Shown: positions 1 through 10,415 of the stretch, one piece after another
How the letters are laid out: each line of letters starts with the position of its first letter
Numbering within the stretch: the first letter of the stretch is position 1
DNA from: Paenibacillus sp.
Lineage (GTDB): Bacteria; Bacillota; Bacilli; Paenibacillales; Paenibacillaceae
Reading direction: 5' to 3'
DNA length: 10,482 nucleotides
NCBI GenBank assembly: GCA_029256665.1
Contig: JAQSXN010000082.1
Location: forward strand, 1 to 10,482
Program-made: the position numbers and the translations under genes
Notes under the pieces: model-generated
What the model saw: only the letters and a program-made list of their open reading frames with translations
Told to the model about the DNA's origin: nothing
Database searches by the model: none

Positions 1-1136
1 ATTCTTGCAAAAGGAACTCCATCCCAAACGACATCCCCCGTTTTTGCGTCCCATGCAAACCATACTCCCGACTTCCCGCCTTGCACCACGATTTTTTGTT
101 GTTTCCCGTTTACGGTTGCATTAAGAATCATCGGCGAGGCAGCGGCATCATAATCCCAGAGATCGTGGCTAACTTCTTGCTTCGCCCATATGAGCTTGCC
201 ATTCGCGGCATCGACGGCAACTACCGAGTCCGTATACGGGTTATCGCCCGGCCTGGATTCGCCATAAAAGTCAGGCGCCGGGTTGCCGACCGCAAAATAC
301 ATCATACCCGTCTCTTCGTCGATGGCCGGCGGGTTCCATACCGCGCCTCCGCCTTGGAAATTGCTGTTTGCCAACCAATCTTGCCCTTTTGGAGGAACTG
401 TCCAGAATGGCGTATCCCAAGCCGGCGAAAGGTCGCTCGCTTTATAAGCGTTAACGAATCCGCGAACGCCATTGTCCCCTCCGCTGCTGCCAATATATAT
501 ATTCCCCTTATAATAAACGGGAGCCGTCGTTTCATAATAGCCGTTCTCCAGCGTAACCCCATCGATGGAGTCGGAGATCGGCACCATTTTGATAAGCTCC
601 CCCGTCTTTTGATCCAGGGATACAATTTGATTGTCGATGGTGAGCATGAACACTTTGCCTTCCCCTACAGCAACACCGCGGTTGGCGATAATCCCTGACT
701 TGCTGAAAGTTGCGGCTTGCTCGGCGGAAGGCTTCCAGTGCCAGATTTGATTGCCGGTTGCGCCATCGAAGGCAAATACCTGATTCCCGGCAGTCGTAAT
801 GTATACCACGCCGTCAACGACAACAGGATAACATTGATTTCCGTTCTTGACGTCTTTGTCCAACTCTTTGAGGTCTGCGGTCCATATCATGCCCAATTCC
901 GAAACGTTCTCAGCCGTTACCTCCGAATAAGGCACATGACGGGTATTGTTTAAATCAAAGCCATAGGTGCCAAAATTTTTAAAGGAGGTTCCCGTTACCT
1001 TCCCCGGTTGCGCGGAAGGAGCACTTTCGGTTGGACTGGGAGCCGGCGCCGGTTCATTGGTATTATTACTGCAGGCGCTTAACACGAGGCTTGTACTTAA
1101 AATGGCGACACCAATTGCTGCGTGAGTTTTTTTCAT
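1..1136 (-). CDS. PQQ-dependent (quinoprotein) alcohol dehydrogenase-like lipoprotein, 3' end outside window
   Basis: Translating the minus strand from the ATG at 1136-1134 gives 378 residues without a stop to the left edge, so the C-terminus is missing. An AGGGA ribosome binding site lies a few bases upstream. The N-terminus is a lipoprotein signal (lipobox L19-S-A-C22) followed by a Pro/Ser/Ala linker, placing the enzyme on the outer face of the cytoplasmic membrane. Quinoprotein blades are recognisable: VVYITTAGNQVFAFDGATG (about 110-128), GVAVGEGKVFMLTIDNQIV (154-172) and SVVAVDAANGKLIW (304-317). By family knowledge (MxaF, ExaA, PedH), W267 in GGGAVW should stack on PQQ, N285 in VGNP is a metal ligand, and D328 in HDLWDYD is the catalytic base. 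D221 sits where the family normally has Glu as a metal ligand, and D330 is the extra Asp of lanthanide enzymes. The vicinal Cys pair of ExaA/MxaF is absent. No cytochrome domain is visible in the part present. The substrate cannot be read from the sequence. Confidence 0.9.
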   Translation of the reverse strand, partial: MKKTHAAIGVAILSTSLVLSACSNNTNEPAPAPSPTESAPSAQPGKVTGTSFKNFGTYGFDLNNTRHVPYSEVTAENVSELGMIWTADLKELDKDVKNGNQCYPVVVDGVVYITTAGNQVFAFDGATGNQIWHWKPSAEQAATFSKSGIIANRGVAVGEGKVFMLTIDNQIVSLDQKTGELIKMVPISDSIDGVTLENGYYETTAPVYYKGNIYIGSSGGDNGVRGFVNAYKASDLSPAWDTPFWTVPPKGQDWLANSNFQGGGAVWNPPAIDEETGMMYFAVGNPAPDFYGESRPGDNPYTDSVVAVDAANGKLIWAKQEVSHDLWDYDAAASPMILNATVNGKQQKIVVQGGKSGVWFAWDAKTGDVVWDGVPFAR

Positions 1137-1203
1137 TTGAACGATCCCTTCATGTTTTCATTTGAAATTTCATGTTAGTACAAGTTTGAACATCCTTTGT
1201 AAG

Positions 1204-1231
1204 ATAATATTTCCAACATATTTAAAAACAA
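1204..1231 (-). promoter_or_regulatory. Candidate promoter for the quinoprotein dehydrogenase gene
   Basis: On the minus strand TTGTTT (1231-1226) and TATTAT (1209-1204) are separated by 16 bases. The -10 box matches the vegetative consensus at 5 of 6 positions; the -35 keeps only TTG. A start near 1197 would leave a leader of about 60 bases before the ATG at 1136. The surrounding sequence is strongly A/T rich, so a chance match is possible. Confidence 0.4.
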
Positions 1232-1334
1232 TGCAAACACATCCGCTATCTTTGATAATCGCCAACTTCGGTTCCATCGCATCAATTTCTCAGTCATTTA
1301 AGGTATAAAAGAACGTCCTCAAGGTCATCTTTAT

Positions 1335-1354
1335 GGAGAGGGATTATCCCCTCC
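1335..1354 (+). promoter_or_regulatory. Hairpin/dyad in the leader of the CuA lipoprotein gene
   Basis: GGAGAGGGATTATCCCCTCC can fold into an 8-bp stem (GGAG + GGGA against TCCC + CTCC) with one bulged A and a TTA loop. It also contains the 11-base DNA dyad GGGATTATCCC (1340-1350). It lies 14 bases before the ribosome binding site GAGGAGG (1368-1374) and downstream of a possible -10 box TATAAA (1304-1309) that has no good -35. It could be an operator or a leader structure; no regulator family is recognised. Confidence 0.35.
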
Positions 1355-1380
1355 CAATTTACATATCGAGGAGGACATGC

Positions 1381-1776
1381 ATGAAACAGAAATCTCGTCT
1401 GATCTTTGCGGCAGCGATGCTGACTATCGTTCTGATGTTAAGCGCTTGCGGTAATAACGCTAACAATTCGGGCAATCCGTCTACTAATACAGACCCTTCC
1501 AATGCTGGCGGACAAACCAAAGAAATTACCCTGTCGGCGACAAACTTCGCCTTTGATCCACCGGAAATAAAACTGAATGTCGGCGATACCGTCAAGCTGA
1601 CTCTCAAGAACACGGACGGCAATCATGGCGTGGAAATACCTGATCTTAATATCAACTTGCAAAACGATCAAACGGTTACTTTCACGGTAGACAAAGCCGG
1701 TACTTACGATTATTATTGCTCGATTCAATGCGGCTCGGGCCATGATAATATGACGGGTACAATCACTGTTTCCTAA
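1381..1776 (+). CDS. CuA-type cupredoxin lipoprotein (COX2-like copper domain, stand-alone)
   Basis: The product is 131 residues from the ATG at 1381, chosen because GAGGAGG (1368-1374) sits 6 bases upstream and the lipoprotein signal starts there; an in-frame ATG at 1333 would add 16 residues ahead of the signal. The lipobox is L20-S-A-C23, followed by an Asn/Ser/Gly linker and one cupredoxin domain (about 46-131). The C-terminal motif C113-SIQ-C117-GSG-H121-DN-M124 has the spacing of the dinuclear CuA site of cytochrome oxidase subunit II, and H82 in GNHGVEIP supplies the second His. All five side-chain ligands are therefore present. There is no subunit II transmembrane hairpin, so this is a tethered electron carrier or sensor rather than an oxidase subunit. 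Divergent orientation to the quinoprotein dehydrogenase suggests it may accept that enzyme's electrons; this is inference. A nitrous-oxide-reductase-related or Sco-unrelated CuA carrier is the alternative. Confidence 0.85.
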   Translation: MKQKSRLIFAAAMLTIVLMLSACGNNANNSGNPSTNTDPSNAGGQTKEITLSATNFAFDPPEIKLNVGDTVKLTLKNTDGNHGVEIPDLNINLQNDQTVTFTVDKAGTYDYYCSIQCGSGHDNMTGTITVS

Positions 1777-1808
1777 AGTCCGGAGGTTGACCGGTGTCAG
1801 TGCGCAAC

Positions 1809-1850
1809 AAAAAAGGAGTTCCATGCGATCATGGAGCTCCTCCGTTTTTT
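1809..1850. terminator. Bidirectional rho-independent terminator between the CuA gene and pqqE
   Basis: GGAGTTCCATG (1815-1825) pairs with CATGGAGCTCC (1830-1840) over 11 bp with one T-G wobble, around a CGAT loop. For the minus strand the stem is followed directly by six T (A1809-1814). For the plus strand six T lie at 1845-1850 after four spacer bases. The pqqE stop codon (1831-1829) lies inside the hairpin, so translation should run into it. Confidence 0.85.
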
Positions 1851-2962
1851 ATTAAGCTGCCGCGATAAGAATAAGCAGGGATTAATGGATCGTTGTCACA
1901 CCCCGATCGTTTATGGTCCGCTTCATTAATAAACGAAATGATTTCAGTTATCTTATGGTGATGAGGTGACCACTTGCATACAGGATCTGCTTGCTGCGAG
2001 TCGCCTGTTAACAGATAAGCCTGGCACCGGCATCCCCCAAAATCACGGAAACGATGATCGCAGCTCCGGCAAGGCTCAGCCATCCAATCAAACCCGCGGT
2101 AGGCATTAAAGGCAGCGGATTCCTGCCATATCCATTGCAAATTCCGTTCTTTAACGGATTCGAATTTCAAGGTTTTAATACTCGATGCCGCAGTACAGGG
2201 CAATACTTTACCATCGGGAGCCACGGTCATGGAGATTTCTCCCCACCCTCCCATACAGGGCTTAGGGTATTCCTCATAATAGTCCGGCAGGACCCAGATC
2301 AGCTCTAGCTTTTGACCAAAACGCGCTTTGGCCCGTATATAGGCTTCTTCCGCGGCCGTAAGCTGCGCCCTGGTTGGCAGCAGATGCTGACGGTTCAATA
2401 GCGCCCAGCCATAATATTGGGTATTGGCAAGTTCCAGCCGATTAGCTCCCCACGACACGCAAAGCTCGATCATATCTTCAACTAAATGAATATTCTGTCG
2501 GTGCAGAACAACGTTCATATGTAAGGAAAGACCCGCATCACGAATCATTTTTGCCGTTCGTTCTTTGAATTCATGGGATTTGGAACCTGCAATGGTATCC
2601 GCTAGATCAGACTCGGAAGCTTGAACGCTTAGTTGTATGCTATCAATCCCCGCCTTAATCAGCTGCTGAAGACGTTTTTCCGTAACTCCTACACCGCTTG
2701 TAATTAAATTTACAAACAGGCCTAATTCGCGAGCGCGCCTGATTAGCTGGTCTACATCCGGTCTTAAGAGCGGCTCGCCGCCCGTTAGGTGTATCTGTAC
2801 GATGCCTAGCTCGCTGGCCTCTTCGAATACTCTGATCCAATCCTCCGTAGTCAGTTCATTCTCTCTTTTGGTAAGCTCTATCGGATTTGAACAGTAGACG
2901 CAATGCAGGGGGCAACGATGAGTGATTTCTGCGGACAGCGCATACGGTATGCTTGCTTCCAC
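1829..2962 (-). CDS. pqqE: PqqE, PqqA peptide cyclase (radical SAM/SPASM enzyme)
   Basis: PqqE is the radical SAM enzyme that, with PqqD, forms the carbon-carbon bond between the Glu and Tyr of PqqA. Numbered from the GTG at 2974 (381 residues), C21-x3-C25-x2-C28 binds the SAM cluster and TGGEP (64-68) is the SAM-binding motif. In the SPASM domain the auxiliary-cluster ligands known from Methylorubrum PqqE all align by spacing: C240, C260, C315, C317 for one cluster and C302, C305, D311, C333 for the other. A second in-frame GTG at 2962 shares one base with the pqqD TAG stop and has G-rich sequence just upstream, whereas the GTG at 2974 has no good binding site. I prefer 2962 (377 residues), with translational coupling to pqqD. 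It is the last gene of the operon and ends inside a terminator. Confidence 0.95.
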   Translation of the reverse strand: MEASIPYALSAEITHRCPLHCVYCSNPIELTKRENELTTEDWIRVFEEASELGIVQIHLTGGEPLLRPDVDQLIRRARELGLFVNLITSGVGVTEKRLQQLIKAGIDSIQLSVQASESDLADTIAGSKSHEFKERTAKMIRDAGLSLHMNVVLHRQNIHLVEDMIELCVSWGANRLELANTQYYGWALLNRQHLLPTRAQLTAAEEAYIRAKARFGQKLELIWVLPDYYEEYPKPCMGGWGEISMTVAPDGKVLPCTAASSIKTLKFESVKERNLQWIWQESAAFNAYRGFDWMAEPCRSCDHRFRDFGGCRCQAYLLTGDSQQADPVCKWSPHHHKITEIISFINEADHKRSGCDNDPLIPAYSYRGSLIKNGGAP

Positions 2963-3231
2963 TATTCCACCCACCCCCGATCTGCTGCTTGAGTAAGAAA
3001 CTCGAGGATATCCGCTTTCAGGTCTGTTTGATGAAATTTAGTCTCTAATTCCTCGATGATTTGAGCAATTGTCCGCTCTCCGTCGCATAACCAAAGAATA
3101 GCCCCGGCTGTTGGATTCAGACGAATGACCCGTTCAGGAAGAAGAAGTAAATCCGTTTGCCTTGCCTTATCGAATTTCATGCGGGCCGGACTGCGCAACC
3201 TGATCTGCTCCGATAACTCCCATGCTATCAT
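2962..3231 (-). CDS. pqqD: PqqD, PqqA-binding peptide chaperone
   Basis: The 89-residue product matches the PqqD family in length and pattern: an N-terminal strand region (IRLRSPARMKFDKARQ), the core LLPERVIRLNPTAGAILWL (30-48), CDGERTIAQIIEEL (49-62) and a C-terminal helix ending in ADRGWVE. By family knowledge PqqD is a winged-helix-like RiPP recognition element that binds the PqqA leader and presents it to PqqE. Its ATG overlaps the pqqC stop as ATGA (3231-3228), and GAGG sits 7 bases upstream, so it is co-translated with pqqC. It is a separate protein here, not fused to PqqC or PqqE as in some species. Confidence 0.94.
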   Translation of the reverse strand: MIAWELSEQIRLRSPARMKFDKARQTDLLLLPERVIRLNPTAGAILWLCDGERTIAQIIEELETKFHQTDLKADILEFLTQAADRGWVE

Positions 3232-3938
3232 CGCTCATCCTCGCGATTGGGGAACGCCAGACTTAACGCATCAAGAATGGACCAAAGCACATCGCACTTG
3301 AAATGAAGCGCAGCTATAGCCTGATCTTGTTCCCTGCGGTCCTTGCATTCGCGCAATACGAGCTCCATTCCATGGTCGGCGTCGCGGGGGGCCTGATGCA
3401 GCCTTGCTTGAAAATATGCCAGACCTTCTGGTCGAATCCAGGGATACAACTGCTCAAATACGGCAATTCTCCGCGAAATAAGCACAGGGGCGAACAATTC
3501 CGTCAAAGAGGAGGCAACGGCAATAAGCCAAGGCTGAAGACGGCAGAAGTTCACATACGCGTCAACCGCGAAACGAACGGCTGGAAGGACATGACGCTCA
3601 TCCAGCATTTCCTCTCTCGATATGCCGGTTGCTTCGCCAAGACGGATCCAGGCTTCGATTCCGCCCTCGTCCCCCTCCGTTCCATCATGGTCAATAATAC
3701 GCTGAATCCAGTTGCGCCGATCTTCCCTGGTTGGGAGCTTCGAGAGAATGAGCGCATCTTTGACGGGGATGTTCTTTTGATAATAGAACCGATTCGCAAC
3801 CCAAGCCCGAAGTTGTTCCGGACTCAGCTTACCTTCATGCATCCGTATGTGAAAGGGATGTTTATCGTGGTAGCGCAACTCCCCGACTTCCCGTAATCTG
3901 ATTGTTAATTGTTCATTTGACAGCAAGTGCTGACTCAT
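3228..3938 (-). CDS. pqqC: PqqC, pyrroloquinoline-quinone synthase (cofactorless oxidase)
   Basis: PqqC performs the last step, ring closure and an eight-electron oxidation of AHQQ to PQQ using O2. The start is the ATG at 3938: GGAGGTC lies a few bases upstream (overlapping the end of pqqB), while the in-frame ATG at 3968 lies inside pqqB and lacks such a site. The resulting 236 residues align without gaps, from my memory of Klebsiella PqqC, over the active site: Y23-H24, R50, Q54, K60, H84, E147, R157, Y175, R179 and K214 are all at the same numbers. The exception is position 154, Ile here and His in Klebsiella. Signature stretches include NRFYYQKNIPVKDA, VRFAVDAYVNF and SSLTELFAP. It starts 2 bases after the pqqB stop and overlaps pqqD by 4 bases. 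Confidence 0.95.
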   Translation of the reverse strand: MSQHLLSNEQLTIRLREVGELRYHDKHPFHIRMHEGKLSPEQLRAWVANRFYYQKNIPVKDALILSKLPTREDRRNWIQRIIDHDGTEGDEGGIEAWIRLGEATGISREEMLDERHVLPAVRFAVDAYVNFCRLQPWLIAVASSLTELFAPVLISRRIAVFEQLYPWIRPEGLAYFQARLHQAPRDADHGMELVLRECKDRREQDQAIAALHFKCDVLWSILDALSLAFPNREDER

Positions 3939-3940
3939 GC

Positions 3941-4867
3941 TCAGACCTCCAATTCCATACCATCGCAACCCACTTCAATTCCCTGCTCCTTTAGGCAGCG
4001 GTACTCCTTAGAATCTTCGTCGAGGATCGGGTTCGTGTTGTTGATATGAATATATATTTTACGCTGTGCCGATATTCGGGTAAGGCGTTCCAGGCTGCCA
4101 TTGCGGCCCGCGATCGGGATATGTCCCATTTCAGATGCCGCCAGATCCGAAATCCCCAGATTTATGAGCTCGTCTGAATGCCAGAAGGTCCCATCGATCA
4201 ATATACAATCCGCATTCTCCAATTGCCGCTCCAGCTCTTTCGTCCATGACTCAACTCCGGGTGCATACACAGCCTTGCCGCCCGTCCATTGGTCGACGAG
4301 CCGGTAACCGATCACCCAAGGAGAACAATACTCTGCTCCCTTTAAGCGATTATGGTAGACGGACGCGTATCGAGGTGGCTTAGAGCCCATAAAAAAAGGA
4401 TATACCAATATTCTCCCCCCAAATAGTGGAAAGCATTCCTGCGGCCGCGCTTCCAACCATCGAAACTTCGCATAAGGCCCCAGGATTTGTTGGATAGGGA
4501 AGGGTTCTTGAAGTGCGCTTAATACAGGGGCAGCGGCATAAACGTCGATTTCCGCCGATTCTCTTAAATGAAGCAATCCCATCGTGTGATCCAGTTCAGC
4601 ATCCGTAAGCAGCACGCCAAGTATAGGCGTATGGCGTATCTCCGACGAACCCGGTTGAAGCTCGGAGTGGGATTCGATCTGTGCGCTTACGTCGGGGGTG
4701 GCATTAATTAGATACCATGACTCTCCGTTATCGCTTAAGGCCAACGAATTATGCATTCGGGGTTGAAGAGACGCATCATTGGTCCGAGCACGACGGCAGT
4801 TTGGACAGTCGCAGTTCCACTGAGGGAAACCGCCTCCTGCGGATGACCCCAGTATCTTCAAATACAT
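3941..4867 (-). CDS. pqqB: PqqB, metallo-beta-lactamase-fold PQQ biosynthesis hydroxylase
   Basis: The product is 308 residues from the ATG at 4867, preceded by AGAGGGGGA; this is the usual family start (MYLKILGSSAGGGFPQWNC) and length. An upstream in-frame ATG at 4891 lies by the intercistronic hairpin and is less likely. PqqB has the metallo-beta-lactamase fold and is described as an iron-dependent hydroxylase acting on the cross-linked Glu-Tyr intermediate. Visible family marks are C19-D-C21-PN-C24, INATPDV (54-60), the degenerate metal motif TDAELDHTMGLLHLRE (88-103), IDGTFW (224-229), MGHIPI (247-252) and IHINNTNP (273-280). It is the second pqq gene, 56 bases after pqqA, and ends 2 bases before pqqC. 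Confidence 0.95.
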   Translation of the reverse strand: MYLKILGSSAGGGFPQWNCDCPNCRRARTNDASLQPRMHNSLALSDNGESWYLINATPDVSAQIESHSELQPGSSEIRHTPILGVLLTDAELDHTMGLLHLRESAEIDVYAAAPVLSALQEPFPIQQILGPYAKFRWLEARPQECFPLFGGRILVYPFFMGSKPPRYASVYHNRLKGAEYCSPWVIGYRLVDQWTGGKAVYAPGVESWTKELERQLENADCILIDGTFWHSDELINLGISDLAASEMGHIPIAGRNGSLERLTRISAQRKIYIHINNTNPILDEDSKEYRCLKEQGIEVGCDGMELEV

Positions 4868-4892
4868 GTTGTATCCCCCTCTAAATAACATA

Positions 4893-4910
4893 TGCCGGAT
4901 TTCTCCGGCA
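4893..4910 (-). promoter_or_regulatory. Intercistronic hairpin with GAAA loop between pqqA and pqqB
   Basis: The minus-strand transcript reads TGCCGGA-GAAA-TCCGGCA, a perfect 7-bp stem (8 with a flanking G-U) closed by a GNRA-type tetraloop. It begins 13 bases after the pqqA stop and ends before the pqqB ribosome binding site. No T-run follows, so it is not a simple terminator. Stabilising or processing structures behind a small precursor gene can raise its transcript above the downstream genes; that role here is inference. Confidence 0.6.
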
Positions 4911-4923
4911 CGTTGTATTCCAT

Positions 4924-4995
4924 TTACTTCTGATACGCGTATGCGGTAACCTCGGCACAAACCTCTATGACTTCAAAATCAGGCTTAACCCACAT
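4924..4995 (-). CDS. pqqA: PqqA, 23-residue PQQ precursor peptide
   Basis: A short reading frame from the ATG at 4995-4993 to TAA at 4926-4924 encodes 23 residues that begin MWVKPDF and contain EVTAY near the C-terminus. This matches the PqqA family in length, in the conserved N-terminal M-W-x-K-P and in the E-V-T-x-Y core. E15 and Y19 are at the numbers of the Glu and Tyr that become PQQ in the Klebsiella peptide. GGGAGGTGA (5008-5000), close to a perfect ribosome binding site, ends 4 bases before the ATG, which fits high expression of a substrate peptide. It is directly upstream of pqqB in the canonical order. C13 next to the core and a second Tyr (Y21) two residues after Y19 are unusual details. 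A frame this short is often skipped by automatic gene calling. Confidence 0.93.
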   Translation of the reverse strand: MWVKPDFEVIEVCAEVTAYAYQK

Positions 4996-5017
4996 GCCCT
5001 CACCTCCCGCTATGGAA

Positions 5018-5036
5018 TGTTCAAAAAGTTCGGTTC
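5018..5036. repeat. TGTTCAAAAAGT repeat, copy 1 (single arm)
   Basis: The sequence TGTTCAAAAAGT (5018-5029) recurs exactly at 9183-9194. Continuing to 5036 versus 9201, 17 of 19 bases agree. At this site no matching inverted arm is found nearby. It lies in the 51-base gap between the small membrane protein gene and pqqA, so it is transcribed with the operon. Confidence 0.6.
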
Positions 5037-5046
5037 AGGCTGGGTC

Positions 5047-5298
5047 TTATGATCGAGATTCCAAGTTGGCCGCACTTTTGGCGTCGATGGCTCTGGCCCC
5101 GGTTTCCTCGGTCTCCCGCTGATCGAACATTTTGCCGAGCTTCCACCCGAGTCCTATATTCATAATCGCCATGGCCGAAAATAAGGCAACGTCGCCCCAC
5201 GGTTCCGGAAGAAGCAGGTCGGCCAGTAACCAACCACCGGTCATCGAGGCTCCTAGCATGACGCCTTTCGTGGAAGATTTCATGTGAATTTTCCCCAT
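5047..5298 (-). CDS. Small two-helix membrane protein of unknown function
   Basis: The product is 83 residues. The start at 5298 is supported by AGGGAGGTG about 8 bases upstream. After a short basic N-terminus, residues 13-30 (VMLGASMTGGWLLADLLL) and about 36-53 (DVALFSAMAIMNIGLGWK) form two hydrophobic segments joined by a turn (PEPWG), with a charged tail (FDQRETEETGARA) that is probably cytoplasmic. I recognise no family. It lies 51 bases upstream of pqqA on the same strand with no terminator between, so it is likely the first gene of the pqq transcript. A role in export, assembly or membrane attachment of the PQQ system would be guesswork. A second frame over the same stretch (5329-5021) has no membrane or domain character and is taken as a shadow. 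Confidence 0.7.
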   Translation of the reverse strand: MGKIHMKSSTKGVMLGASMTGGWLLADLLLPEPWGDVALFSAMAIMNIGLGWKLGKMFDQRETEETGARAIDAKSAANLESRS

Positions 5299-5347
5299 AA
5301 TCGCACACCTCCCTATCGAATTGGTTCATACCTTCCTTCTAAAATCG

Positions 5348-5353
5348 ATTATA
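5348..5353 (-). promoter_or_regulatory. Candidate -10 box of the pqq operon
   Basis: The minus strand carries a perfect TATAAT at 5353-5348, about 50 bases before the ATG of the small membrane protein. A TTGAAC lies upstream but only 12 bases away, too close for a normal -35; no good -35 is seen at 16-18 bases. The site may depend on an activator or another sigma factor, or may be a chance match. Confidence 0.35.
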
Positions 5354-5430
5354 TGTTCGGGACAAGTTCAATTATTCCGTTGAATTAATCACGACACTCA
5401 CTCCTTGGTCAATGCGCTGCCAAGCGCGCC

Positions 5431-5465
5431 AAAAAGCCCGACCGGATTAGAATCCCGGACGGGCT
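5431..5465 (-). terminator. Rho-independent terminator of thrC
   Basis: On the minus strand AGCCCGTCCGG pairs with CCGGTCGGGCT (5465-5455 with 5445-5435), an 11-position stem with one internal mismatch, around a nine-base loop and followed by a T-run (A5431-5435). It starts about 19 bases after the thrC stop codon and separates thrC from the upstream end of the pqq operon. Confidence 0.85.
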
Positions 5466-5483
5466 TAGCATCAAAGTCGCTTG

Positions 5484-6881
5484 TTACGCGCGATAGAACT
5501 TGATCAGTTCCTTGGTAATGTCTTCAAGCTTGCCGTCAACGAACGTTTGGCGCTGCGGCTTGTCGAACAGCGAAGCGATCTGCGACGGGAATTTCTGCTC
5601 GATGCCGCACAGGCGGATCGCTTCGTCGAACTTGGCGGGATGCGCCGTCGCCAGCGAGATGTTGATCTCGCCTTCTTGACCGCAACGGTCGGCCGCCGCT
5701 ACGCCGCATGCCGAGTGCGGATCCAGAAGGTAACCGAATTTCGCTTGGTAGTCGGAGATCGTGTCGAGGCATTCTTGACCGCCGACGCCGTGCGCGGCGA
5801 ACTCGGCCTGCACCTTGCGGAGCGCATCCTCCGGAATGCTGATTTCGCCTTCCGTCTTGAACTGCTCCATCAGGCGGCTCACTTCGGCGGCGTCCTCGTT
5901 CAGAACATAATACAGATAACGTTCGAAGTTGCTCGCGACTTGGATGTCCATGGACGGGCTGTACGTCATGCGGAAGTCGCCCGGCATATATACGCCCTCG
6001 TGGATGAAACGCTCCAGGATGTTATTCTCGTTAGTGGCGAGAATCAACTTGCCCACCGGCAATCCCATTCGCTTCGCTACATAACCGGCGAAGATGTCGC
6101 CGAAGTTGCCCGTCGGCACGCTGAAGTTGACCGGCTCCCACTTGCCCGTCGATTTCGCCGCTTGGAAGTACGAATAGAAGTAATAGACCGTCTGCGCCAG
6201 AATGCGCACGAAATTGATGGAATTGATCGCCGCCAGATGGTTGGCCGACTTAAAGTCCAGGTCCGCGAACAGCTCCTTGATCATCCGCTGGCAATCGTCG
6301 AAATTGCCCTCCACGGACAGATTAAGCACATTGTCGTCCTGAACGGTCGTCATCTGCAGTTCTTGCACCTTGCTGACTTTGCCCGTCGGATGCAGAATGC
6401 AGATTTTGATCCCTTCCTTGCCCTTAACGCCTTCGATCGCGGAAGCGCCGGTATCGCCGGACGTCGCGCCTAATATATGAATTTTTTTGCCCGTTTTCTT
6501 AGCGACGTACGAGTAGAACTGGCCCATGAATTGCAGCGCGATGTCCTTGAACGCGAACGTCGGACCGTGGAACAGCTCCAGCAAATACAGATCTTCGCGG
6601 ATGCGGCGCACCGGCGTGACTTCGGGGTCGCGGAACGTGCCGTAGCTCGCTTCGACCAACTCCTTCAGCTCGTCTTCCGGAATTTCGCCGTTCGTGTAAT
6701 GCGAGAATATCGCAAGCACCAGCTCTTGGTAGCTAAGCGATTGCCACTCTTTCAGCGTTGCTTCGGATATGACCGGAATTTCCTTCGGCACGAGCAGACC
6801 TCCGTCATCCGCCAGTCCCATCATAAACGCGTCGATAAAGCCGATTGAACCTATCTTGCCCCTAGTGCTGATATACTCCAT
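5484..6881 (-). CDS. thrC: Threonine synthase (PLP-dependent, long form)
   Basis: Threonine synthase converts O-phosphohomoserine to threonine and phosphate in the cytoplasm. The product is 465 residues from the ATG at 6881, which has AGGAGG 6 bases upstream and gives the family N-terminus MEYISTRG...DGGLLVP. The PLP lysine is K112 in LFHGPTFAFKDIALQFMGQ, and GATSGDTGASAIEG is the phosphate/PLP-binding loop; PTGNFGDIFAGYVAKRMGLP is also typical. Length and the GPTFAFKD motif place it with the longer Pseudomonas/E. coli/yeast type rather than the roughly 350-residue Bacillus subtilis type. It stands alone between its own promoter region and a terminator, with no hom or thrB beside it in the window. 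Confidence 0.95.
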   Translation of the reverse strand: MEYISTRGKIGSIGFIDAFMMGLADDGGLLVPKEIPVISEATLKEWQSLSYQELVLAIFSHYTNGEIPEDELKELVEASYGTFRDPEVTPVRRIREDLYLLELFHGPTFAFKDIALQFMGQFYSYVAKKTGKKIHILGATSGDTGASAIEGVKGKEGIKICILHPTGKVSKVQELQMTTVQDDNVLNLSVEGNFDDCQRMIKELFADLDFKSANHLAAINSINFVRILAQTVYYFYSYFQAAKSTGKWEPVNFSVPTGNFGDIFAGYVAKRMGLPVGKLILATNENNILERFIHEGVYMPGDFRMTYSPSMDIQVASNFERYLYYVLNEDAAEVSRLMEQFKTEGEISIPEDALRKVQAEFAAHGVGGQECLDTISDYQAKFGYLLDPHSACGVAAADRCGQEGEINISLATAHPAKFDEAIRLCGIEQKFPSQIASLFDKPQRQTFVDGKLEDITKELIKFYRA

Positions 6882-6942: not shown

Positions 6943-7098
6943 CAGATGGGACGTGATCTGCGACCCCTTTGAAAGCCACCCGTCGGCCCATAACAAAAAA
7001 ATCCAATGCAAACTTGCATGCAACCTTCCGGAGAAGGGACTCGTCAGAACCGGTAAGCGCATAGCGCAAATACTACCACGATCGACAAGGAGATGGAC

Positions 7099-7722
7099 AT
7101 GATGAAAAAAAGAGTTGCAAACATGATGATGGTTTTAGCGATGGGTTTCGCGCTTGCCGCTTGCGGCGCAGATGACAATAAAGGTAACGCGGAACCAACC
7201 GCAACGGAATCGGCAACGGTCGCTCCAACGGAGACGCCGGATGCGGGGAGCGGAACAAATGCCGGCAACGGCGGGGAAGAACCGGACGGCGGCAACGGCG
7301 GGGCGGAAGGCGGAGAAAGCAAGGAACCCGCGAAGGAAGGCACGTCGCGATTCGTGATGGAGGCGCTCGTCGACGAAGCCGATCGTCCCGCGTTTATCGA
7401 AGCCGACGATACGATGCTGAAGGATATGTATGGTCTTGACGCGGCTTTATTCCAGGACTACGTCGTCATGATGCCCATGATGAACATTTCCACGACCGAA
7501 TTCGCCGTCTTCCAATTGAAGGATGCCAAGGATCTTCAGACGGTCGAAGAAGGCATCAAGAAACGCGCAGCAGCCGTGCAGAAGTCGTTCGAGGAGTACT
7601 TGCCGGATCAGTACGAGAACGCCAAAAACTACAAGCTGGTCACCAAAGGGAACTTCGTCTTGTTCGCCATCGCCAAAGACGCGGCCGATGTCGCCGCAAA
7701 GTTCGAACAAACCGTAAAGTAA
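7099..7722 (+). CDS. DUF4358-type lipoprotein of the MBOAT/DHHW cluster
   Basis: The start is taken as the ATG at 7099 because AAGGAG (7087-7092) touches the in-frame ATG at 7093 and stands 6 bases before 7099; the ATG at 7102 is also possible. The 207-residue product begins with a lipoprotein signal (lipobox L19-A-A-C22), then a long Gly/Glu/Asn/Thr/Pro linker to about residue 80, then a small folded domain (about 83-205) with FVMEALVDEADRP, QDYVVMMPMMNISTTEFAVF and a C-terminal DAADVAAKFEQTVK. This pattern fits DUF4358 lipoproteins, which I recall often standing beside MBOAT and DHHW genes in Paenibacillus and clostridia; their activity is unknown. It ends 10 bases before the acyltransferase gene and is the first gene of the operon. 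Confidence 0.75.
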   Translation: MMKKRVANMMMVLAMGFALAACGADDNKGNAEPTATESATVAPTETPDAGSGTNAGNGGEEPDGGNGGAEGGESKEPAKEGTSRFVMEALVDEADRPAFIEADDTMLKDMYGLDAALFQDYVVMMPMMNISTTEFAVFQLKDAKDLQTVEEGIKKRAAAVQKSFEEYLPDQYENAKNYKLVTKGNFVLFAIAKDAADVAAKFEQTVK

Positions 7723-7732
7723 GCTAACCCTC

Positions 7733-9178
7733 ATGGTATTCAGCAGCCTGCTGTTTCTGTTTCTGTTCCTGCCTGTCGTCCTGTTGCTCTATAACCTGTC
7801 GCCTTGGCGGGTGAAAAACTTGCTGCTATTCCTGGCAAGCCTAGTGTTTTACGCATGGGGCGAGCCGATTTACATCCTTTTAATGTTATTTTCCACGCTG
7901 GCGGATTATTTATTCGGCTTGATCCTAGACAAGCCGGGGAGGAGCGAACGCAGCCGCAAGGCGGTGCTCGCGTCTTCCGTCATCGTGAATCTTGGCATGC
8001 TCGGTTTCTTCAAATATGCCGACTTTCTGATCGGCAACGTCAACGCTTTGCTCGGCACGTCTATTCCGCCGACCGATCTGCCGTTGCCCATCGGAATCTC
8101 CTTCTATACGTTCCAGTCGATGAGCTATATCATCGACATCTACCGGAGGCAGGCCAAAGCGCAGCGCAACTGGATCGATTTCGCGACGTTCGTCTCTCTT
8201 TTCCCGCAGCTTGTCGCCGGACCGATCGTGCAATACAACACGGTTGCCAAGCAGCTGCGCGAGCGGCGCGTCGATGCGGCCATGTTCGCCGAAGGCATTA
8301 GGCGCTTCACGATCGGACTCGCCAAGAAGGTGCTGCTGGCCAACAATATCGGACTGCTATGGCACGACGTCTCGTCGGGCGGAGGCTTCGAAGGGCTGCC
8401 GGCTCTAACCGCTTGGCTTGGAATTATCGCGTTTGCGTTCCAAATTTATTTCGACTTCAGCGGATACTCCGACATGGCGATCGGACTCGGCCTGATGTTC
8501 GGCTTCCGGTTCAACGAAAACTTCAATAAACCGTACACGGCAACCAGCATGACGGATTTCTGGCGGAGATGGCATATTTCGCTAGGCGCCTGGTTCAGGG
8601 ATTATGTCTATATTCCGCTCGGCGGCAATCGGCTCGGACTCCCCAAGCAGCTTCGCAACATCCTGATCGTATGGCTGCTGACGGGCATCTGGCACGGCGC
8701 GAGCTGGAACTTTCTATTGTGGGGACTGTATTTCGGCATCATCCTGATCGCGGAAAAGCTGTTTATGCTCCGGCTGCTGCGGGGATTGCCTAGGTGGATC
8801 AGCCATCTGTACGCGATCGCGCTTATTTTGGTCGGATGGGTATTATTCGCTTTTGAAGAGACGAGCCAGATCATGGCCTATCTGGGAGCGATGTTCGGAG
8901 GAAGCGGGGTATGGGCCGATCGTCATACCGGCTATTTGCTCTACACGAACGCCATTCTGCTTGTATTGCTCGTCCTGGCTTCGCTCCGTTGGCGCCGGCT
9001 TCGGCCGGATTCCGCGGCTGCGCTAGGCGGATCAACAACGGAGAAGGGCGGCGACACCGGGAGCCTATCCAGTCTCTATCCGTTAGTCGGACTCGTCTGG
9101 CACGCATTGCTGCTGCTCATGTCCGTCGCCTATCTCGTCGATGCCACTTTTAATCCGTTTCTTTATTTCCGCTTTTAG
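7733..9178 (+). CDS. MBOAT-family O-acyltransferase (AlgI/DltB-like)
   Basis: The product is 481 residues, a polytopic membrane protein with hydrophobic segments from the N-terminus (LLFLFLFLPVVLLLY) to the C-terminus. Family marks are NLLLFLASLVFYAWGEP (29-45), PLPIGISFYTFQSMSYIID (117-135), FPQLVAGPI (157-165), FQIYFDFSGYSDMAIGLG (236-253), DFWRRWHISLGAWFRDYVYIPLGGNR (275-300) and LTGIWHGASWNF (316-327). H321 in the last motif corresponds to the catalytic His of AlgI (about 322), and H281 is the second conserved His. By analogy it passes acyl, usually acetyl, groups across the membrane to an extracellular acceptor. No clear ribosome binding site precedes the ATG; the gene begins 10 bases after the lipoprotein stop, so translational coupling is likely. 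Residues 436-455 form a polar Gly/Ser-rich loop before the last helix. Confidence 0.93.
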   Translation: MVFSSLLFLFLFLPVVLLLYNLSPWRVKNLLLFLASLVFYAWGEPIYILLMLFSTLADYLFGLILDKPGRSERSRKAVLASSVIVNLGMLGFFKYADFLIGNVNALLGTSIPPTDLPLPIGISFYTFQSMSYIIDIYRRQAKAQRNWIDFATFVSLFPQLVAGPIVQYNTVAKQLRERRVDAAMFAEGIRRFTIGLAKKVLLANNIGLLWHDVSSGGGFEGLPALTAWLGIIAFAFQIYFDFSGYSDMAIGLGLMFGFRFNENFNKPYTATSMTDFWRRWHISLGAWFRDYVYIPLGGNRLGLPKQLRNILIVWLLTGIWHGASWNFLLWGLYFGIILIAEKLFMLRLLRGLPRWISHLYAIALILVGWVLFAFEETSQIMAYLGAMFGGSGVWADRHTGYLLYTNAILLVLLVLASLRWRRLRPDSAAALGGSTTEKGGDTGSLSSLYPLVGLVWHALLLLMSVAYLVDATFNPFLYFRF

Positions 9179-9183
9179 AGGTT

Positions 9184-9215
9184 GTTCAAAAAGTCCGCTT
9201 CTCAACTTTTTGAAC
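9184..9215. repeat. Perfect 11-bp inverted repeat (copy 2 of the TGTTCAAAAAGT element)
   Basis: GTTCAAAAAGT (9184-9194) and ACTTTTTGAAC (9205-9215) are perfect inverted copies around a 10-base loop, directly after the acyltransferase stop codon and before the ribosome binding site of the next gene. The left arm matches the copy at 5018-5029. No terminator-type T-run follows the closed stem. It may be a small dispersed intergenic repeat or the remains of a mobile-element end, or a hairpin that lowers expression of the downstream gene. Confidence 0.65.
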
Positions 9216-9245
9216 TCGTATTTCTAGCAAGGAGGAGCTTCGCCT

Positions 9246-10415
9246 ATGACTGCCAAATGGATAGATCGCGTTTATATAGGGGGCTTCCTCTCGTTGCTTG
9301 CCGGCTTGCTTCTCTTGTTCGCGTTCCAGCCCAAAACGATCTTCTCGGAACTGGAGAACCGCAGCCTGCAGAGCAAGCCGGAGCTGTCCTGGGACCGCAT
9401 CCGGTCCCAACAATACGCCAAGGACGCGGAGTTGTACGTGACCGACCACTTCCCGTTCCGTAACGGCTTCATCGCGGCGAAGTCGAAGCTGGAGCAGCTT
9501 CGTTTGCAGAAGGAGAACAACGGCGTCTTCCTCGGCGACGATGACTATTTGTTCGAGAAATTCGAACGGCCCGACTACGAGGAGCTTGGCTCTTACGTGG
9601 ATGCCTTGGGACAATTCGCCGCCAATCATCCCGCAACAAACCTTTCGTTTATGCTGGCGCCCAACTCCATCGGCTTGTATCCGGACCGGCTGCCTTGGCT
9701 GGCGGACGCTTACCCGCAGAAGGACGTACACGAGTGGATCGGCGAGCGGCTGGGCAGCGACATAACGTTCTTGGACGGCTTCGATTTTTTATCCGGGGAA
9801 GGGAATAGCGGGGACGGCGTAAGCGCGGAGAGGCCGCTCTATTACCGTACCGATCATCACTGGACCAGCTACGGCGCCTACATCGCTTATCGGGCGTATG
9901 CCGAGTCGATGGGCTGGGAGCCGCTCGCGGAGGAGGATTTTCGGATCCGCAAGGTGACGGACTCCTTCCTAGGCAGCTACCATACGAAGAGCCAATTCGG
10001 CGGAGTCGACCCGGATTCCATAGAAATCTACGAGCCTAAGCAGTCCGTCGCCACCGAACTGTATATCGCCGATACAGACGAGACCAGAGACGGTCTCTAT
10101 GACGAGAGCTACCTTGAGAAGAAGGACAAATACGCCTACTTCCAGGGCGGCGTGCACTCGCTCGTCACCGTGAAGAGCGAGCTCTCCGAAGAGGAAGCGG
10201 ACCTCGGAAAGCTGCTGATCGTCAAGGACTCTTACGCGCACAGCATGCTGCCTTTCCTGACCAGCCACGTGGAGGAAATCCACATGATCGACGTTCGTTA
10301 CTACAACGGCAACATCGGCGATTACATGGAGCAGAACGGCATCGGCGACGCGTTGTTCCTGTTCAATACTTCGACGTTTGTCGAGGAACGGGGCTTGCTG
10401 AAGCTAAAGTATTAG
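9246..10415 (+). CDS. DHHW-family protein (AlgX/AlgJ-like, SGNH-type acylation partner)
   Basis: The product is 389 residues. AAGGAGGAG (9230-9238) lies about 7 bases before the ATG. A single N-terminal hydrophobic segment (about 11-27, GGFLSLLAGLLLLFAF) acts as a membrane anchor or uncleaved signal, with the rest outside. FSELENRSL (33-41) and YVTDHFPFRNGF (64-75) are typical of the family. The naming motif D203-H-H-W206 in YYRTDHHWTSYGAY and the Ser motif KDSYAHSML (S329) match the D-x-H plus Ser arrangement of AlgX, so D203, H205 and S329 are the likely catalytic triad. By analogy it transfers acyl groups supplied by the upstream MBOAT protein to an exopolysaccharide or wall polymer; the polymer is unknown. 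It is the last gene of the operon, followed by a strong hairpin. Confidence 0.9.
   Translation: MTAKWIDRVYIGGFLSLLAGLLLLFAFQPKTIFSELENRSLQSKPELSWDRIRSQQYAKDAELYVTDHFPFRNGFIAAKSKLEQLRLQKENNGVFLGDDDYLFEKFERPDYEELGSYVDALGQFAANHPATNLSFMLAPNSIGLYPDRLPWLADAYPQKDVHEWIGERLGSDITFLDGFDFLSGEGNSGDGVSAERPLYYRTDHHWTSYGAYIAYRAYAESMGWEPLAEEDFRIRKVTDSFLGSYHTKSQFGGVDPDSIEIYEPKQSVATELYIADTDETRDGLYDESYLEKKDKYAYFQGGVHSLVTVKSELSEEEADLGKLLIVKDSYAHSMLPFLTSHVEEIHMIDVRYYNGNIGDYMEQNGIGDALFLFNTSTFVEERGLLKLKY

Follow-up and report, generated by a model that had tools for sequence, protein, structure and literature searches.

The window analysed here, a 10,482-nt stretch constituting the entire contig C10 of a 4.14-Mb Paenibacillus sp. 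assembly (630 contigs, 63.9 % complete), encodes a complete set of pyrroloquinoline quinone (PQQ) synthesis genes, pqqABCDE, beside the genes for a quinoprotein dehydrogenase (DH), a CuA-type cupredoxin and an 83-amino-acid (aa) protein with two predicted helices (Table 1). The best explanation of the whole, to which a probability of about 0.72 is assigned on the basis of gene content, homology, conserved residues, linkage, gene fusions, co-distribution and phylogeny, is a Bacillota cassette that makes PQQ and uses it on the outside of the cell's single membrane. Quinoprotein and lanthanide metabolism have been studied mainly in Gram-negative bacteria. The compact cassette is predicted to support quinoprotein respiration outside the cell that dispenses with cytochrome c, and named strains of Paenibacillus and Cohnella contain relatives of it.

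The window genes appear to provide for PQQ synthesis. All five Pqq proteins exceed the cut-offs of their NCBIfam equivalog models, which bears out the complete set claimed in a preliminary description of this sequence, and the genes follow one another in the order A-B-C-D-E in a minus-strand run that starts with the 83-aa open reading frame (ORF; 5047-5298) and ends with pqqE at 1829. The PqqA precursor, MWVKPDFEVIEVCAEVTAYAYQK (4927-4995, stop codon 4924-4926), contains the core E-x3-Y. In the PQQ pathway, PqqE and PqqD crosslink the Glu and Tyr of PqqA, peptidases trim the product, and PqqB and PqqC complete the cofactor in the cytosol; on the basis of family membership the window proteins would perform these same steps. 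Proteobacterial pqqABCDE operons match the window in their five genes and gene order. The window differs in containing no PqqF/PqqG-type protease (relatives of the window have a linked M19 dipeptidase) and in PqqC. The window PqqC conserves 11 of the 12 positions compared with the Klebsiella enzyme, using a list of positions which we take to form the active site and in which His154 is presumably important; position 154 is Ile in the window. Among 46 rows, this position is His in 6; the Paenibacillales rows have Ile or Val, two Actinomycetota have Met and Sphingomonas has Ile.

The DH (frame 3-1136, minus strand) has the lipobox LSAC; the contig start truncates it to 378 aa, its relatives being approximately 570-600 aa long. 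It passes the Pfam PF01011 cut-off (232 bits; cut-off 26.7) and matches the PQQ-dependent dehydrogenase fold, and is closest to PQQ alcohol dehydrogenases both by sequence (best E-value against solved enzymes 3.5e-42) and by fold (model pLDDT 66, low at the active-site loops). The DH of P. cellulositrophicus (L036; 578 aa), which is 88 % identical to that of the window across 382 residues, served as full-length reference and provides the residue numbering. The best PDB matches by sequence and fold are quinohemoprotein alcohol dehydrogenases (1KB0, 1YIQ, 1KV9), in which, as in some DH relatives, the enzyme is fused to its own electron carrier. Unlike these, the reference and 22 other DHs examined (23 in all) contain no CxxCH heme motif, and the neighbouring carrier is a copper protein. 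Upon alignment to solved enzymes, the Glu of the GAE/GGE motif is replaced by Asp in the DH, the Asn is retained, and the catalytic Asp is followed by a second Asp at +2 (WDYD), which PedH (6ZCV) also carries. An Asp two residues after the catalytic Asp is a mark of lanthanide enzymes. Residues D225, N289, D332, D334 and K359 are invariant in 120/120 DH relatives listed (of 2564), and D334, the +2 Asp, is present in the window DH too. The DH is probably a cell-surface dehydrogenase of the lanthanide (rare-earth) type. It shares its fold with the lanthanide alcohol and methanol dehydrogenases (PedH, 6ZCV; XoxF, 6DAM), but is approximately 25 % identical to them and differs in its lipid anchor, in the Asp for the metal-binding Glu and in lacking a Cys-Cys pair. 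The combination of an Asp/Asn/Asp/Asp metal site, a lanthanide-type +2 Asp, the Glu-to-Asp change and no Cys-Cys pair is newly described here and is common to all 120 relatives listed.

PQQ synthesis and the DH recur together. PqqC scores above its cut-off in 29/394 genomes of the family, 21/344 from the order (partly the same genomes) and 3/348 from the phylum (the window's own genome included), and the DH occurs in 27/29 PqqC+ versus 13/365 PqqC- family genomes (Fisher p = 1e-29, not corrected for descent). Within the stretches of 29 pqq loci compared, namely the window and 28 further neighbourhoods, the DH is encoded in 23, the 83-aa ORF in 24 and CuA in 12, a weak match to another cupredoxin in L062 being left out of the last count. 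Further partners include an Ig-like secreted protein beside the DH (20 loci), an M19 dipeptidase beside pqqE (17 loci) and a WGxxGxxG-type secreted protein (20 loci). None of these three occurs in the window itself, where the contig stops inside the DH; with a truncated DH and such recurrent partners in its relatives (among them the two-helix ORF), the module can no longer be called self-contained, as it had been at first. A scan of named genomes identified 55 loci with a DH relative, of which 37 (L073-L109; at least 54 % identity) belong to Bacillota, mainly Paenibacillus and Cohnella, with one Robertmurraya and one Oceanobacillus. Of these 37 stretches, 21 contain pqq genes, 28 contain CuA and 19 contain the 83-aa ORF, which is never found there without pqq genes. 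In G031, a pqq+ genome of the window's genus that lacks both the DH and the two-helix protein, the gene before pqqB (L062:6160-8400) resembles, by eye, a secreted soluble glucose/sorbosone-dehydrogenase-type protein. A pqqA-like peptide of Paenibacillus cymbidii (L105) adjoins the two-helix gene, about 5.6 kb or more from pqqB, and a putative MntP-type manganese efflux protein (PF02659) is encoded near the cassette in 11/29 loci (e.g. L058:7129-7683). The DH genes of the pqq- genomes G059 and G073 (L199, L200) are split into pieces in different frames, with the CuA and Ig-like genes still adjoining.

The CuA protein has a lipobox and the motif H...CSIQCGSGHDNM, and matches Thermus CuA with an E-value of 2.8e-8; the ligand set H...CxxxCxxxHxxM is complete in 16/16 CuA rows checked. 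Ligand motif and sequence match are shared with the CuA domains of cytochrome oxidase subunit II and N2O reductase, but the window protein is a free 131-aa lipoprotein which falls far under the CoxB (TIGR02866; 34 bits, cut-off 147.7) and NosZ cut-offs. Fourteen of the 120 DH relatives listed exceed 630 aa, eight of them ending in a CuA-motif domain, two in cytochrome c and four in another cupredoxin (PF06525), and the CuA domain fused to one of these relatives (P0100) is 44 % identical to the window CuA. The DH-CuA fusion proteins place enzyme and copper carrier in a single chain. A CuA gene lies beside the DH in 13/13 DH loci of pqq- family genomes, and within the stretch in 12/23 DH loci of pqq+ genomes. 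Because one type of DH pairs with three kinds of one-electron carrier, and elsewhere with a CuA protein encoded next door, CuA is the probable electron acceptor of the DH. The PF01011 match, the CuA motif and the lipobox in both proteins uphold the preliminary description of a quinoprotein dehydrogenase and a CuA lipoprotein beside the pqq genes, with enzyme and presumed acceptor both lipid-anchored. The genes do neighbour each other, but are not simply all adjacent as had been stated, given that the CuA gene (1381-1776, plus strand) is transcribed away from the DH gene and towards pqqE, and that an extra ORF lies upstream of pqqA.

Separated from pqqA by 51 bases and read in the same direction, this extra ORF encodes the 83-aa protein with two predicted helices (pLDDT 60, indicative only), for which library scans gave no NCBIfam or Pfam family match. 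The stretch treated in the preliminary description ends exactly where this ORF does (5298), although the description leaves the ORF unmentioned. A profile search recovered 102 relatives among 7990 scored candidates, the named ones from Cohnella, Paenibacillus and Paenibacillaceae and annotated as hypothetical or, in UniRef, as 'Holin'. The 27/394 family genomes which encode the two-helix protein are exactly the 27 with both PqqC over the cut-off and the DH; it occurs in 0/13 genomes with only the DH, 0/2 with only pqq and 0/352 with neither. Among 13 further pqq+ genomes outside the family, it is found in 3/3 with this DH and 0/10 of the remainder. One of these ten (G706) has a remote quinoprotein (230 bits, E-value 2.8e-68) that would pass the 1e-60 limit used for the family, and was counted as not this DH because whole DH orthologues score at least 829 bits. 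Overall, the two-helix protein is thus present in all 30 genomes with pqq and this DH, 0/13 with the DH only and 0/12 with pqq only (including G706). At most 7.6 kb separates its gene from pqqC in 24/27 family genomes; in the other three the gene is on a separate contig, as in 2/3 genomes outside the family. The position varies: the gene precedes pqqA in the window and the DH in many Cohnella loci, and in other loci follows pqqE or the DH. As the association persists through rearrangement, a functional tie to pqq and the DH is suggested, and it is proposed that the two-helix protein links PQQ synthesis with use, through PQQ export or DH loading. To our knowledge, no factor has been identified that brings PQQ to an external enzyme, and this small membrane protein represents a testable candidate for such delivery.

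Taken together, newly made PQQ would be moved outside and loaded, along with a metal, into the lipid-anchored, eight-bladed DH, whose site of Asp, Asn, Asp and Asp would be of the lanthanide type. The DH would then oxidise some alcohol- or sugar-like substrate, and electrons would pass singly to the lipid-anchored CuA, in place of cytochrome cL, and on to a terminal oxidase, with the two-helix protein joining synthesis to use by PQQ export or DH loading. The biochemical steps, the metal and the roles of CuA and the two-helix protein in this scheme are all predicted from comparative data. In its most specific form, the scheme gives monoderm Bacillota a lanthanide-dependent respiratory module with CuA substituting for cytochrome c, and has the two-helix protein transport new PQQ through the membrane or deliver it to the enzyme. 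This version is tentative and, as a complete package, rather doubtful.

Several observations weigh against a cassette that makes and uses PQQ in this manner. A full-length DH relative scores 304 bits with TIGR03075 (PQQ alcohol dehydrogenase, methanol/ethanol family; cut-off 480) and, in a near-tie, 267 bits with the 'acido-empty-quinoprotein' model (cut-off 650). Given the missed TIGR03075 cut-off and the proximity to the score of the 'empty quinoprotein' model, the DH is treated as a distinct subfamily. Asp stands for the metal-binding Glu in 120/120 DH relatives listed, and the Cys-Cys pair of classical PQQ alcohol dehydrogenases is absent at its place in these 120, while the DH is present in 13 family genomes that have no PqqC, and is broken in two of these. 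The DH could, on these grounds, be an 'empty' or calcium-type quinoprotein, or use PQQ non-classically or without a lanthanide, with PQQ serving other enzymes or being released. This is considered unlikely, in view of the presence of the DH in nearly all PqqC+ family genomes, mostly within about 10 kb, and the retention of the catalytic Asp, Asn and Lys throughout the relatives listed; furthermore, genomes with only the DH could import external PQQ, as do many Gram-negatives (PMC12124388). The main text of that paper concerns PQQ import in Gram-negatives and makes no mention of Gram-positive bacteria, Bacillota or Firmicutes.

The role of CuA meets with a similar objection, in that no CuA gene lies within the stretch in 11/23 DH loci of pqq+ genomes, the rest of those genomes not having been searched, and the divergently transcribed CuA gene is not co-operonic with the DH. 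Electrons might pass instead to menaquinone or cytochrome c, and CuA might have another function such as copper handling, which is improbable considering the eight DH-CuA fusions and six fusions with other one-electron carriers, the adjacency of CuA and the DH in every DH locus of the pqq- genomes and the full retention of the ligands. For the two-helix protein the doubt is greater. Two changes suffice to explain the pqq label on the 40-row DH tree, and well-supported branches provide just one independent pair (p = 1, a test without power), so that shared descent alone could yield the observed pattern. The chance that this protein is a hitch-hiker on the cassette unrelated to PQQ, for example holin-like, as some database labels and the usual linkage to pqqC would suggest, is put only a little below even. 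A role in PQQ delivery is favoured by its presence with pqq and the DH even where its gene is unlinked, by its varying place within the cassette and by its occurrence in 0/365 pqq- family genomes.

The host is Gram-positive, as the preliminary description had surmised. Synteny with G001, one of 50 further genomes of the same genus (g1) in the comparison set, extends over thrC and the three genes that follow it, with thrC 91 % identical and the match ending at 5483; PqqC was not found in G001. In the PqqC tree, 35 Paenibacillales rows fall together with moderate support (88/77), followed by the phylum rows G825 (98/92) and G706 (86/86), with Proteobacteria and Actinomycetota outside the Paenibacillales group. 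The syntenic flank and this grouping rule out Gram-negative contamination, a refuting condition named in the preliminary description, and relatives of the cassette occur in named Paenibacillus and Cohnella genomes, some of them on multi-megabase contigs. The cassette has a GC content of 0.495, against 0.553 for the flank and 0.545-0.573 for four other contigs of the genome. In the PqqBCDE tree the window belongs to a nine-row group (100/100) with seven rows from the genus that holds P. cellulositrophicus (g9) and one (L035) from that which holds Cohnella (g2), and in the DH tree it joins seven g9 rows in a group of eight (100/99). By comparison, the best match to the window thrC in eight g9 genomes searched is 29 % identical at most. 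Vertical inheritance of pqq with Paenibacillus sp. HB172176 (G040), of the window's own genus, was rejected (PqqBCDE clade; AU p = 0.0007), as was a PqqBCDE clade of the seven g9 rows alone (p = 0.0004). The window and L035 nest among these rows, so that transfer may have run in either direction. The simplest reading is that the cassette was horizontally acquired, apparently having passed between genera of Bacillota. A plasmid location was rejected, the best matches in the plasmid collection being at 35 % (DH), 64 % (PqqC, Streptomyces) and 41 % (CuA) identity.

The shift in sequence character at 5483, the affinity of the cassette to g9 and of the flank to g1, and the fragmented assembly could also reflect a chimeric or misbinned contig, in which the assembler joined a cassette (1-5483) from another Paenibacillaceae genome to the thrC of this genus. 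There is little likelihood of this, as the cassette is not near-identical to any compared genome (PqqBCDE at most 79 %, DH 88 %), G040 of the same genus has its own pqq-DH-CuA set, and horizontal transfer accounts for the same pattern; even a chimera would leave the host a Gram-positive member of the Paenibacillaceae.

Although a module for PQQ synthesis and use in a Gram-positive bacterium is supported, PQQ synthesis in such bacteria is not new as such. In Mycobacterium smegmatis, a PQQ cassette that includes a single PQQ alcohol dehydrogenase has been described (Haft 2011, PMC3023750), and PQQ synthesis genes likewise adjoin a quinoprotein dehydrogenase in Streptomyces and Paractinoplanes (L171, L116). 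The dehydrogenases of these actinomycete cassettes are, however, approximately 33-35 % identical to the window DH, and tblastn scans of L171 and L116 detected none of the CuA, two-helix and Ig-like partner genes. A literature search of titles and abstract starts gave, among the matches listed, no paper on Bacillota that combine PQQ synthesis with a CuA-coupled DH. What this analysis adds is the putative lanthanide-type site, the carrier fusions pointing to CuA, the co-distributed small protein, the apparent horizontal acquisition and the linked M19 dipeptidase.

This dipeptidase bears upon the maturation of PqqA. As far as the NCBIfam and Pfam family scans reached, the window contains neither a PqqF/PqqG-type protease nor a cytochrome c gene, in agreement with the preliminary description. 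Its suggestion that PqqA is matured by an unlinked or general protease holds insofar as the window has no linked peptidase, but not for the 17/29 loci in which the M19 dipeptidase is linked and is a candidate for trimming the modified PqqA. The window's own genome (64 % complete) has a single M19 copy, outside the window and 51 % identical to a pqq-linked copy. The best M19 proteins of seven other genomes without a linked copy show 49-52 % identity, and the pqq-linked copies are 63-100 % identical. No role for an M19 dipeptidase in PQQ synthesis was mentioned in the literature passages checked.

Table 1. Positions, strands and supporting evidence for the features of the window
Feature	Position	Strand	Evidence
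Quinoprotein dehydrogenase (DH) lipoprotein, N-terminal 378 aa	1..1136	-	PF01011; PDB 1YIQ/8GY2/1KB0/1KV9/6ZCV; C-terminal part beyond contig start
CuA-type cupredoxin lipoprotein, presumed electron acceptor	1381..1776	+	PF13473; Thermus CuA match; ligand motif
Terminator-like hairpin between convergent CuA and pqqE	1814..1841		Consensus scan only
pqqE, radical SAM/SPASM PqqA-crosslinking enzyme	1829..2974	-	TIGR02109, 510 bits (cut-off 381)
pqqD, PqqA chaperone	2962..3231	-	TIGR03859, 83.5 bits (cut-off 46)
pqqC, final oxidase of PQQ synthesis	3228..3938	-	TIGR02111, 325 bits (cut-off 240)
pqqB	3941..4867	-	TIGR02108, 382 bits (cut-off 245)
Hairpin between pqqA and pqqB, possible attenuator	4892..4911	-	Consensus scan only
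pqqA precursor peptide	4924..4995	-	TIGR02107, 24.1 bits when scored without its last residue (cut-off 20); PF08042, 29.3 (cut-off 21.1)
83-aa two-helix membrane protein, proposed PQQ export/loading factor	5047..5298	-	Co-distribution, 27/394 family genomes
End of synteny with G001 (thrC side), likely edge of acquired cassette	5483..5484		Genome comparison

Consensus scans of the window gave ten terminator-like sites (shuffled mean 5.6, sd 2.6) and no excess of promoter-like sites over shuffled sequence, and no RNA family scored above its gathering threshold. Beyond the cassette, positions 7093-10415 encode a DUF4358 lipoprotein (PF14270), followed by an apparent MBOAT acyltransferase and an AlgX/DltX-like partner, the latter two named by eye; this group adjoins thrC in 2/5 thrC stretches compared (G001 and G036). 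Elsewhere in the same genome, contig C39 (L064) contains two more PqqD-domain matches, which perhaps belong to a separate radical-SAM peptide cluster.

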